Assembly: GCA_007693965.1 (NCBI GenBank) | Contig: RECQ01000026.1 | Coordinates: forward strand, 1-64,000 | Direction of reading: 5' to 3' | From: Phycisphaeraceae bacterium | Lineage (GTDB): Bacteria > Planctomycetota > Phycisphaerae > Phycisphaerales > UBA1924 | DNA: 64,000 nt | In this document: one piece after another, positions 3,530 to 57,939 of the stretch | How the letters are laid out: every line of letters begins with the position of its first letter | Position numbering within the stretch: the stretch's first letter is position 1 | Notes under the pieces: generated by a model | What the model was told of the DNA's origin: nothing | Seen by the model: only the letters and a program-made list of their open reading frames with translations | Databases searched by the model: none | Made by a program: the position numbers and the translations under genes

Positions 3530-3560
3530 AGCGAGCCGGGGCGAGACGCCCCGGCTCGCT
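3530..3560 (+). repeat. REP-like perfect palindrome, left of transposase
   Basis: A 31-base hairpin: AGCGAGCCGGGGCG, loop AGA, CGCCCCGGCTCGCT. It ends directly before the transposase start codon. Its half-sites recur as a facing pair at 4139-4213. Confidence 0.85.
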
Positions 3561-3562
3561 TG

Positions 3563-4117
3563 ATGCCGGATCTGACGATGCAAGACACTCCTGCACAAAC
3601 AGGAAAAACAACCGTCTGGCACATCACCTTCGGAACGTACGGATCCCGACTGCATGGCGACGGACGCGGAACCGTCGCCCGGCCCAACAACAAACGTGGC
3701 GATCCGTACATCATCCTCGACCCCTGGCGCGCAGAGCAGGAAAGCAACATCATGCGCCATGACCCCGTCATCCTGACGCACGAGCAGCGCCGATTCATCG
3801 AAGCCAACCTTCCAAAGATTTGTGAAAAAGGAGGCTGGCGACTCATCGCATGCGCCGCCGGCCCCGACCACGTCCACACACTGCTGGAAGCAGATTCCAG
3901 AATCCACGGCCGACGCATCAGACCGCTTCTGAAACGCTGGTTGACACAAAACCTCGAAGAGCGTTGGCGCCAGCCACGACGCCCGGACGGCATGGGCTGG
4001 TGGGTTCAGGGCGGTTCGACCAAGGCCGTGAAGCACCCGCACTACCTTCAAACCGCGATCCGCTACATCACGGAGCAGCGCGCAACACCCCGGTCATCGG
4101 GTTCCCGATCGGCGTGA
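3563..4117 (+). CDS. REP-associated tyrosine transposase (Y1/HUH)
   Basis: A single-strand DNA transposase of the IS200/IS605-related Y1 superfamily, REP-associated (RAYT) branch. Visible features are the N-terminal WHITFGTYGSRL (about 19-30), the HUH metal motif HVH at 103-105 in GPDHVHTLLE, and a candidate catalytic tyrosine at 168 in AIRYITEQR. The length of 184 residues fits RAYTs. Palindromes with shared half-sites flank the gene on both sides, the usual arrangement of a RAYT with its REP substrates. A TTG at 3560 and ATGs at 3563 and 3578 are possible starts; the palindrome reaches up to 3560. RAYTs are usually single-copy, host-like genes, not free transposons. Confidence 0.85.
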   Translation: MPDLTMQDTPAQTGKTTVWHITFGTYGSRLHGDGRGTVARPNNKRGDPYIILDPWRAEQESNIMRHDPVILTHEQRRFIEANLPKICEKGGWRLIACAAGPDHVHTLLEADSRIHGRRIRPLLKRWLTQNLEERWRQPRRPDGMGWWVQGGSTKAVKHPHYLQTAIRYITEQRATPRSSGSRSA

Positions 4118-4138: not shown

Positions 4139-4213
4139 AGCGAGCCGGGGCGTCCCGCCCCGAGTAGCACACCTACACACGCGTTCATTCGGGGCGAGAC
4201 GCCCCGGCTCGCA
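4139..4213 (+). repeat. Facing REP-like pair, right of transposase
   Basis: Two elements face each other: AGCGAGCC followed by hairpin GGGGCG-TCC-CGCCCC (4139-4163), and hairpin GGGGCG-AGA-CGCCCC followed by GGCTCGC (4190-4212). They share the core of the palindrome at 3530 and form a BIME-like pair just after the transposase gene. Confidence 0.8.
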
Positions 4214-9599: not shown

Positions 9600-9747
9600 C
9601 AGCCAACGCTCCTGTCAACACAGACGCCTGAGCCGTGTCCTCAAGGCGGAGTACGGCGAAGTCTTCAGAACCACGGACACAACAACAGACCAGGAAGCGC
9701 CCGGCGCTCGTTCATGCTCAATGACGGCCCGCGCCAAAGTGCACGGT

Positions 9748-9860
9748 CTGAAATCTCGAATTTCAAATCTGAAATTTCAAATTTCAAATATCAGATTTCA
9801 AATCTCAAATCTCAGACCCCAAATTTCAGATCCGAAATCTGAAATCTCAAATCCAAATCT
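9748..9860 (+). repeat. AT-rich 7-base periodic repeat
   Basis: About 110 bases consist almost wholly of the 7-mers AAATTTC, AAATCTC, AAATCTG and close variants. It lies at the 3' end of the minus-strand gene that ends at 9868. The same motif in the opposite orientation lies at 34885-34986. It stands out sharply from the high-GC surroundings. Confidence 0.85.
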
Positions 9861-9867
9861 CCCCACA

Positions 9868-22578: not shown

Positions 22579-23934
22579 TTAGCGGACGGGCCTGAGCGGC
22601 GTTGTTTCGTCGAAGTAGATGAAGGCGTCGTAGCGGCGCGTCAGGTTGGTCGGGACATAGTTGCGCTGGCTTTCGTGGCGCGGGTCGAAGGTGACGCCGA
22701 TGGCGCGGTGGCCGCGGATGTCGGAGAGCGGCCCGTCGCGCATCGCGTCGTCGAAGACGATCAGCCCCCGCTCGACGCCGGCGCGCCGGAAGAGGTCTTC
22801 AGCGCTGTTGGGGATGGGGGGCGCTGAGGTCATGGTGCGGACCTGGTCGCCCCAGCCGCGGCCGGCGAGCAGTTCGCCGCCGCCCATGCCGAAGCCGACG
22901 CTGACGACATCGTCGCCGTGGCTGTCGCGGGCGAGGTGGCCGATGTTGAGCATGCCCTGGGCGCTCATCGAGGTGGCCCGGGCGTCGCCGATGTGGGTGT
23001 TGTGGGCCCAGACGACGCCGCCGCCACGGTTCTCGTGGTGTTCGAGCAGGCGCACGGCGGTGGCGTGGAAGTGGCGGGCGCGGTCGTTCCAGGACATGGC
23101 GCCGCCACGGACGGCGTTGCGGTGGTGGCGTTCGGCGCTCTTGACGGTGTAGGCGTTCTGCTTTGCATTGAAGAAGGCCTTGGAATCCTGGCGGGCCAGA
23201 TCGTCCGCGCGTTCGCGGAGGGTTTCGACGACGCGCACCACGCCCGCCTCGCACGACGCGGCGCCGGACGCCATGGCCCGGGAGTAGACGGAGAAATCAG
23301 GGGCGTAGGCGCTCATGCAGGAATACGAATGCATCGCAATCTCCGCCGCCTCTTCGTCGGCTTCTTCCAGATACTCCAGCACCTGCCGCTTGGATTCAGG
23401 CGCGCCGTAGATGTCGAGCCCGTAGAAGCCGACACGCTCATCGGCGGGAAGCGACTTGTTGTGCTCATGCAGCCATTCGATCAACTCGAGCACTTCCTCG
23501 TTGGCCCACATCCACTCGGGCCAGCGGTCGAAGCCGGCCATGATCTCCCGGGCAGTGGTTGCTTCGTCGAGCAGTCCCTTGACGTAGAGGTTGAGGCGGT
23601 AACAGGGTGTCCAATCGCCCTCGACGACGATGAAGGCGAATCCCTTTTCCTCGATGAGACGCCGGCTGATCTTGGCGCGCCAGGTGTAGAACTCGCTGGT
23701 TCCGTGCGTGGCCTCGCCGAGGAGGACGAGGCGGGCGTCGCCGATGCGATTGAGCAGGGGGTCGAGGTCGGCTTCGTCGTTCAGCGGCGCGGCGTGTTCG
23801 CGGATGGTTTCGACAGCGCGTTCGGCGCGGTTGTCGACGCCGGGTCGATCGGCCTGGCGAGCATCCGTGATGTCTGTGAAGGCCGCCAGGGCAGCGGCGG
23901 CGAGGAGCGCGATGAGGATCTGTCGTGTGCTCAT
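22579..23934 (-). CDS. Erythromycin-esterase-family protein, secreted
   Basis: A 451-residue member of the erythromycin esterase (EreA-like) superfamily. A signal peptide (ILIALLAAAALAAFTDITDA, about 5-24) precedes LVLLGEATHGTSEFYTWR, VVEGDW, FYGLDIYG and VVWAHNTHIGDA, which hold the catalytic His and Glu residues of the family. Most chromosomal members are not proven to inactivate macrolides, so resistance should not be assumed. A TATATC lies 8 bases before the ATG at 23934; the upstream in-frame ATG at 23973 would place non-conserved sequence before the signal peptide. Confidence 0.85.
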   Translation of the reverse strand: MSTRQILIALLAAAALAAFTDITDARQADRPGVDNRAERAVETIREHAAPLNDEADLDPLLNRIGDARLVLLGEATHGTSEFYTWRAKISRRLIEEKGFAFIVVEGDWTPCYRLNLYVKGLLDEATTAREIMAGFDRWPEWMWANEEVLELIEWLHEHNKSLPADERVGFYGLDIYGAPESKRQVLEYLEEADEEAAEIAMHSYSCMSAYAPDFSVYSRAMASGAASCEAGVVRVVETLRERADDLARQDSKAFFNAKQNAYTVKSAERHHRNAVRGGAMSWNDRARHFHATAVRLLEHHENRGGGVVWAHNTHIGDARATSMSAQGMLNIGHLARDSHGDDVVSVGFGMGGGELLAGRGWGDQVRTMTSAPPIPNSAEDLFRRAGVERGLIVFDDAMRDGPLSDIRGHRAIGVTFDPRHESQRNYVPTNLTRRYDAFIYFDETTPLRPVR

Positions 23935-34884: not shown

Positions 34885-34986
34885 GTTTGAAATTTGAGAT
34901 TTGAAATTTGAGATTTGAAATTTGAGATTTGAAATTTGGGATTTGAGATTTCAGATTTGAAATTTGGGACATGGGATTTCAAATCT
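34885..34986 (+). repeat. AT-rich 7-base periodic repeat, second locus
   Basis: Repeated GAAATTT, GAGATTT and GGGATTT heptamers over about 100 bases. It is the reverse complement in type of the tract at 9748-9860. Confidence 0.85.
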
Positions 34987-56091: not shown

Positions 56092-57939
56092 TCAGGGTGG
56101 CGGGGACCGAGGCTTCGGGGGCTCAGCCTCGGCGTCTGTTTTTTGAGTCGGTTTCGGTTGTTTCCGAGGCTTCGAGGACTCAGCCTCGGCGTCTGTTTTT
56201 TGAGTCGGTTTCGGTTGTTTCCGAGGCTTCGAGGACTCAGCCTCGGCGTCTGTTTTTTGAGTCGGTTTCGGTTGTTTCCGAGGCTTCGAGGACTCAGCCT
56301 CGGCGTCTGTTTTTTGAGTCGGTTTCGGTTGTTTCCGAGGCTTCGAGGACTCAGCCTCGGCGTCTGTTTTTTGAGTCGGTTTCGGTTGTTTCCGAGGCTT
56401 CGAGGACTCAGCCTCGGCGTCTGTTTTTTGAGTCGGTTTCGGTTGTTTCCGAGGCTTCGAGGGCTCAGCCTCGGCGTCTATTTTTTGAGTCGGTTTCGGT
56501 TGTTCCCGAGGCTTCGGGGGCTCAGCCTTGGCGTCAGGTTGGGGTGAGATCGGGATGGTGGTGCGGGTGAGGGTGGTGAAGGCTTCGCCTCGCTGCTCGA
56601 AGTTGGTGAACTGGTCCCAGGAGGCGCAGGCGGGGCTGAGGAGGATGGTGTCGCCGGGGCGGGCGGCGCTCCAGGCGGTTGTGACGGCGCGTTCGAGCGT
56701 TTCGCAGTGGTGGACGGCGGCGCGGTGAGCGCGCGGGGCGGCTTGGGCGAGGGCGGGGCCGGTGGCGCCGATTGTGTAGAGACCGGCCAGGCGCGGGGCG
56801 AGGGCGCTGATCGGTCGGAGGTCGGCGCCCTTGTCGTAGCCGCCGGCGATGAGGTGGACGCGATCGGCGCCGGGGCCGTGGGGCGGCTCGAAGGCTTCGA
56901 TGGCGAGAAGGGCGGCCTCGGGGGTGGTGCACTTGGAGTCGTTGAAGAAGCGAATGGGGGCGGCGCCGGGGTGGATGCGGCGCTCGGCGACGAGCTGAAG
57001 CCTGTGGGGAAGGCCGGGGAAATCGGCGAGCGCAGAGTGGAGGGTTGGATCGTCGGGCGCAGCGCCTGTCGCGGCGGCGACGATGCGGAGCGCGAGCCGC
57101 GCATTGCGTTCGTTGTGCGCGCCGGGCAGGAGGATGGGCGGCGCGGATGGCGCGGTGTCGACGAGCAGGCGGTCGGCCGGGCCTTCGGTGAACTTCGTTG
57201 CGGTCGCCTCGTCGGGGAAGATGGCGATGTCGCCGGGGCGCTGGGCGCGGAAGAGGGCGGCCTTGCTGCGCAGGTAGTGGTTTTCGCTCTCGTGCCAGTC
57301 GAGGTGGTTGGGGGCGAAGTTGGTGAGCGCGGCGATGTGAACCGGCCAGGCGCCTGCGCTGGGCGCTTCGGCCTGCCAGTGGAGCATGAAGCTGGAGAGC
57401 TCGAGGACGATCCAGTCCTGCGGGGTGATGCGGTCGAGTTCGTTGAGGAGCGAGCCGCCGATGTTGCCGCCGAGGTGGACGGATTCCCCCGGGCGGGCGA
57501 GGCGGCGCAGGGCGTGGGCGGTCATGGCGGCGGTGGTGGATTTCCCTGCGGTTCCGGTGAGGGCGATCACGCGGGTGCGGCTGGGCAGTCGCCCGAGCAG
57601 GAGGCCGATTTCCGTGGTGATGGGCACGTTCGCGCTGCGCGCGGCTTGCAGGTAACGGTTGCTCCACGGGCGCGGCACGGCGGGGTTGGCGACAACGAGG
57701 TCGGTTTCTGTGAAGTCGCGCTCCTGGTGTGCGCCGAGGCGGAGCTCGACGGCGCCGGAGTCGACCAGGTCGCGGATGGGTTCGAGGGCGTCTTCAAGGG
57801 ATTCGGAGGGAGCGGCGTCGGTGACGAGGACGCGGGCGGCGCGGGCGGCGAGGAAGCGGATCGCGCCGGCGCCGCCGCCGAAGCGGCCGAGGCCCATGAC
57901 GGTGATGCGTTTGCCATTGAAGTCATCCGTGACGGGCAT
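56092..57939 (-). CDS. murD: UDP-MurNAc-L-Ala:D-Glu ligase MurD with repeat tail
   Basis: MurD adds D-glutamate in peptidoglycan synthesis. The core (about 1-458) is complete: [10 protein letters not shown] start, ATP loop [14 protein letters not shown] (usually GTNGKST), [44 protein letters not shown] and [22 protein letters not shown]. After it, about residues 459-615 are seven to eight copies of a 19-residue unit ([19 protein letters not shown]), encoded by the 57-bp array 56107-56562. MurD normally has about 450 residues, so this tail is an addition. A TACACT box lies 6 bases before the ATG. Presence of murD supports a peptidoglycan wall. Confidence 0.93.
56107..56562 (-). repeat. 57-bp tandem array inside murD, eight units
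   Basis: CCGAGGCTTCG starts each unit at 56107, 56164, 56221, 56278, 56335, 56392, 56449 and 56506; the spacing is exactly 57, so each unit adds 19 codons without a frame change. Units 2-6 are identical or nearly so, while the outer ones differ, a sign of recent expansion from the middle. Each unit contains an inverted pair CCGAGGCT/AGCCTCGG. The same unit lies behind 16S rRNA at 607-758. Confidence 0.95.

Follow-up and report, generated by a model that had tools for sequence, protein, structure and literature searches.

The murD gene of a Phycisphaeraceae bacterium runs in frame into an array of dispersed REP palindromes

The window analyzed here is a stretch of 64,000 nucleotides from contig RECQ01000026.1 of an uncultured Phycisphaeraceae bacterium, whose genome is available as a 3.48-Mb draft assembly of 74 contigs and is the one genome of its genus in the comparison. 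On the minus strand of the window, an open reading frame of 615 codons runs from an ATG start at position 57939 to position 56092. Its product was identified as MurD, the UDP-MurNAc-L-Ala--D-Glu ligase, by the NCBIfam equivalog profile TIGR01087, which it matched at 312.7 bits (curated cut-off, 211.95) over profile positions 1 to 440 of 441 and residues 11 to 459, the whole core of the protein. This core (residues 1 to 459; positions 56563 to 57939, minus strand) contains three Mur ligase domains in Pfam, MurD-like_N, Mur_ligase_M, and Mur_ligase_C, and aligns well over its whole length with the MurD proteins of 36 relatives, all of which points to a complete MurD ligase. MurD is an essential cell-wall enzyme, and this is the sole full MurD in the genome; a second intact murD that would render the present copy dispensable was therefore rejected.

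The frame continues for 156 residues beyond residue 459. The first nine, TTIPISPQP (positions 56536 to 56562, minus strand), look like a native MurD C-terminal end, judging from the length of the MurD proteins of relatives. The next 143 are encoded by repeat DNA, and the last four codons, SPPP, are followed by the TGA stop 3' of the repeat (positions 56092 to 56106, minus strand). The repeat DNA itself comprises 429 bp, or 143 codons (positions 56107 to 56535, minus strand), and forms a direct array in the murD frame of eight 30-nt palindromes, GACGCCGAGGCTGAGTCCTCGAAGCCTCGG, alternating with seven 27-nt spacers. TRF reported a period of 57, 7.5 copies, 98% matches, and a score of 802 for the same interval. 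A first-pass annotation of this DNA had described eight units of exactly 57 bases. The spacing of exactly 57 was borne out by unit-by-unit comparison, but the number of full units was not, since the array consists of seven full units and then a palindrome of 30 nt. The open reading frame, its strand and coordinates, and the in-frame passage of murD into the repeat, all reported in the same annotation, were recovered when re-derived from the sequence, and its claim that the middle units are nearly identical agrees with the finding that units 3 to 7 are identical. Units 1, 2, and 8 differ from the common unit at a few sites, every difference being amino-acid changing, a nonsynonymous pattern that is weak because of the small number of sites. 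The five identical units are consistent with recent duplication and suggest that the array grew by slippage or unequal exchange; ongoing expansion and contraction is plausible. The unit count is that of the draft assembly and is uncertain if the assembly was made from short reads. The palindrome (30 nt) and the spacer (27 nt) each have a length divisible by three, so that every additional copy contributes 19 codons without closing the frame, and because neither contains a stop in the murD frame, one copy preserves the frame as well as eight. The length of the open frame is in itself weak evidence, since the array is open also in frames of the other strand.

As a comparison for this 3' end, we took MurD at 59 loci of relatives and GTDB genomes. 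In these, MurD stops 1 to 49 residues past the aligned core, nearly all of them 1 to 23 residues past it, and a repeat tail was found neither among the 59 related loci nor in the 36-relative alignment. The nearest MurD proteins are only about 57% identical to the murD product, so that the empty site is seen only indirectly. At the head of the first palindrome, exactly, there is a TGA in the +2 frame (positions 56534 to 56536, minus strand), so that the gain or loss of one base within the last 14 codons would give a MurD of usual length, ending about 10 residues past the core as in the relatives. It is conceivable, if unlikely, that murD truly ends at this TGA and that the array was joined to it by a one-base assembly error or by a very recent frameshift confined to this genome. 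The contig starts within a 16S rRNA gene, as metagenome contigs often do, and the palindromes in this genome lie mostly behind genes, some only 14 to 40 bp away, both of which would fit an early end of murD. A frameshift is unnecessary, however, to account for the present arrangement: the array length is a multiple of three, deleting it in silico left a MurD of normal length without a change of frame, and the frame as sequenced is open to the stop at position 56092.

The predicted tail of 147 residues (143 from the repeat, plus SPPP) is basic and rich in proline, lysine, and glutamate, in keeping, both in composition and in its 19 codons per unit, with the Lys/Pro/Glu-rich repeat tail proposed earlier. 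AlphaFold confidence was mostly above 90 in the core and high up to the last helix (residues 447 to 460), while the tail had a pLDDT of about 45 and no secondary structure; the tail is predicted to be disordered and to lie outside the folded enzyme. Read in the murD frame, the array had a codon score of -9 over 143 codons, versus +149 for the 460-codon core, and the codon usage of the tail is not gene-like. A tail of near-identical 19-residue units that carries a net charge of +13 and raises the predicted pI of MurD from 6.5 to 9.3, attached to a single-copy enzyme, might be a selected basic, disordered part that localizes MurD or tunes its interactions, with an adjustable number of units. We regard such selection as improbable, considering that no relative has a comparable tail, that the codon usage is unlike that of genes, that all differences between units change amino acids, and that the same sequence occurs genome-wide as apparently noncoding DNA. 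That a translated tail would give MurD a property dependent on unit number, such as charge, localization, or crowding, with slippage tuning the enzyme between cells of one population, is highly improbable. The array could also act as nucleic acid; the murD mRNA would then carry eight 3'-terminal hairpins that stabilize it or terminate transcription before recA. The murD-sense RNA of the array folded better than 100 of 100 shuffles (z, -4.4), and REPs have been reported downstream of genes, possibly as RNA elements (PMC3733652). Even so, there is only a very slight chance that this is the right account, as translation would still be possible and the hairpins precede the stop codon, where translating ribosomes would unfold them.

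The palindrome is by no means confined to murD. A search for its oriented 31-nt form (AGACG, an 8-bp stem, and a 10-nt loop) gave 76 matches with at most 3 mismatches across the 3.48-Mb genome, and the reversed control pattern gave none. With a variable loop, 99 exact copies were found, nearly all with a length of 31 nt (65 copies) or 37 nt (33 copies) and a single one with 41 nt, again with none for the control; these are grouped in 60 clusters. With copies throughout the genome and none for the control, we rejected chance or low-complexity artifact as the source of the murD array. The palindrome, at 31 or 37 nt within the range of 20 to 50 nt typical of REPs, and with many dispersed and, by approximate gene calls, mostly intergenic copies, has the character of a REP. 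Nearly every copy has the foot AGACG immediately before the stem on its 5' side, the bases beyond the foot are variable, and the unit folds as single-stranded DNA into the expected hairpin. Inverted doublets, as in REPINs, are common among close pairs: neighbors within 300 bp comprised 26 inverted and 13 direct pairs, 21 of the inverted ones joining a 31-nt with a 37-nt form and 11 of the direct ones being 31/31, all as raw counts. The first-pass proposal that a palindromic repeat of intergenic type had been captured as protein sequence thus holds for this dispersed, normally intergenic element, to which we add its identity as a REP. The REP of the array is present in 4 of the 61 genomes of the order that were searched.

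Copies outside murD were intergenic except for two near uncertain gene starts, according to an improvised codon-likelihood gene calling. REPs usually lie behind genes, several of them 14 to 60 bp from a gene end. The caller is crude and overlooked murD itself, where an antisense open reading frame scored well, and for this reason the intergenic labels are approximate. Where a REP lies close to a gene start, as before ispG (L182) and in L167, the uncertain start codon leaves its assignment ambiguous. Five alternative open reading frames with an in-frame REP near the 3' end, all scoring as potentially coding, were considered as further genes with tails of the murD type and rejected; they have no Pfam domain and resemble antisense frames. 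Within the approximation of these calls, murD appears to be the only convincing 3' REP capture found in the genome.

Similar direct arrays occur elsewhere in the genome. A small array of the same REP, with one 37-nt and two 31-nt forms 57 to 62 bp apart, was found by TRF and pattern search at positions 607 to 760 of the window, on the plus strand. It lies between the end of the 16S rRNA gene and the next gene, and its spacer is similar to the one in the murD array, 55 kb distant. In another contig (C66, locus L177), four direct REP copies exactly 133 bp apart occupy positions 2084 to 2513, outside genes by approximate calls. In positions 1 to 840 of the window, what comes after the end of the 16S rRNA gene is not 23S rRNA but REPs and then a protein gene; Rfam detected no 23S rRNA in the window, so the rRNA genes appear to be unlinked. 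Two heptamer tandem repeats, TCTCAAA and TTTGAGA, lie on opposite strands of the window, at positions 9747 to 9861 and 34886 to 34966 (16.6 and 11.6 copies).

Y1_Tnp matches were found in five stretches of the genome, and one such gene, in contig C3, is bracketed by REPs of the array type on both sides, at positions 23571 and 23656 (plus) on one side and 24369 (plus) and 24524 (minus) on the other. The C3 protein scored 20.6 against Pfam Y1_Tnp, slightly under the cut-off of 23, but keeps the HVH motif and the invariant catalytic tyrosine common to all homologs compared; its Y motif is YIRKHR. It thus has the makings of a RAYT within a REPtron, a Y1 HUH transposase gene with inverted copies of its REP on either side, and the same arrangement recurs in a second genome. 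In G007, which belongs to another genus of the same family, the single 31-nt match of the genome adjoins a homolog 58% identical to the C3 transposase, and the gene (contig C210) has a 31-nt (plus) and a 37-nt (minus) form on one side and a 37-nt (minus) form on the other. This recurrence is the best evidence that the REP is a probable substrate of the C3-type enzyme. Two observations fit this less well. A homolog in G003 has no such REP beside the gene. The related genome G008 has 65 diverged REP copies, mostly CCGAGCCT...AGACTCGG (for example, in L143 and L145), and no RAYT of the C3 type was detected there, possibly owing to an incomplete genome. The diverged form in G008 suggests a separate REP expansion in each lineage.

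The window contains a second Y1/HUH transposase-like gene, at positions 3560 to 4117 (plus strand; Pfam Y1_Tnp, 26.6 bits). It is flanked by palindromes at positions 3532 to 3558 and 4141 to 4167, of the type CGAGCCGGGGCG-NNN-CGCCCCGGCTCG, which differ from the REP of the murD array and have 18 copies in the genome with at most 3 mismatches (control, 0). From its sequence organization, this gene with its own palindromes is a second REPtron-like unit. At 9 of the 18 sites (contigs C8, C12, C14, C18, C21, C24, C39, C53, and C59), the second palindrome is found 55 to 92 bp away from a REP of the murD-array family, on the head side of that REP, often at 61 to 62 or 76 to 77 bp, as if the two families formed a composite unit.

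What the sequence establishes is the array and its reading frame, the REP family, and the link to a transposase gene. The dispersed REP and its association with a transposase argue that murD has captured an array of the REP/RAYT type. We think it likely that a mobile REP came to rest at the very end of the murD gene, in a phase free of stops, and was amplified as a 57-bp repeat, and that the resulting tail is tolerated. In the order of events that we infer, a REP, probably the single-stranded hairpin substrate of a Y1/HUH RAYT and presumably mobilized by it, would have arrived in or directly behind the last murD codons, in a phase without stops. It would then have multiplied in place into a direct array of 57-bp period, through slippage during replication or through unequal recombination. 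The tail would be translated as a 147-residue extension of MurD and most likely be tolerated rather than selected, presumably as a neutral addition.

REP capture in open reading frames is a known kind of event. Di Nocera et al. (2013; PMC3733652) described intragenic REPs whose clusters can encode amino acid runs, the larger REP-encoded regions being 43 to 82 amino acids, compared with 143 in murD. Like the REP studied here, the GTAG and CGTC REPs of that survey are short palindromes scattered through genomes, for the most part in intergenic positions downstream of genes. However, they have 5' GTAG or 5' CGTC, whereas the REP of the murD array has a 5' (A)GACG foot, an 8-bp stem, and a loop of 10 or 16 nt. 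Membership in the GTAG superfamily, which requires a 5' GTAG/GTGG tetranucleotide, was rejected on account of the AGACG foot. Membership in the CGTC superfamily (5' CGTC foot, stem of 8 to 9, loop of 4 to 5, and CCA tail; PMC3733652) was rejected for foot and loop; here CGTC occurs solely as the reverse complement on the 3' side, and there is no CCA tail. In addition, CGTC repeats were reported without transposase genes (PMC3733652), whereas the present family flanks one. Rickettsia palindromic elements, which the same source also cites, have been captured in frame in protein genes that are likely still functional. They share with the murD array a palindromic repeat in frame within a coding gene, and differ in sequence; here, murD is the one convincing case, and its insert has been amplified in tandem at the C terminus.

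The REPIN/RAYT systems offer a parallel in organization, with inverted REP doublets, tandem clusters, and a Y1/HUH gene flanked by REPs (PMC3116915, PMC2817692, PMC8266576), all of which are seen here. The doublets, termed REPINs (PMC3116915), consist in this genome of hairpins with unequal loops (31 plus 37 nt), the foot is GACG, and the host is a planctomycete. RAYT class 2, for which Y---NP is reported (PMC6006769), was rejected for the C3 protein, with its Y-I-R-K-H. Class 3 HuH-Y genes of Planctomycetes and Acidobacteria are flanked by atypical hairpins, sometimes in many copies (PMC6006769), and the C3 gene is likewise a planctomycete Y1 HuH gene flanked by multicopy hairpins; the class 3 foot CnGA and motif YV[VI][AENY]EQ differ, however, from (A)GACG and YIRKHR. 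In-frame REP insertions have been reported inside some REP transposase genes (PMC6006769). In the literature searched, which lay mostly outside subscription journals, we found no description of the REP family of the murD array and nothing specific on C-terminal extensions of MurD or on REP-encoded C termini. What sets murD apart is that the capture spans 143 codons, is tandem, and sits in an essential gene, and that its REP family, by foot, loops, and unequal arms, lies outside GTAG and CGTC and goes with a transposase whose Y motif is that of neither class 2 nor class 3. It is a clear example of mobile palindromic DNA within an open reading frame at the end of an essential gene, exceeding the captures in the main survey, and it indicates a REP family with unequal arms and a likely transposase in the Phycisphaerales, where such systems have been little studied. 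If the tail is made, this MurD is a natural test of how large a disordered, charged extension an essential ligase tolerates.
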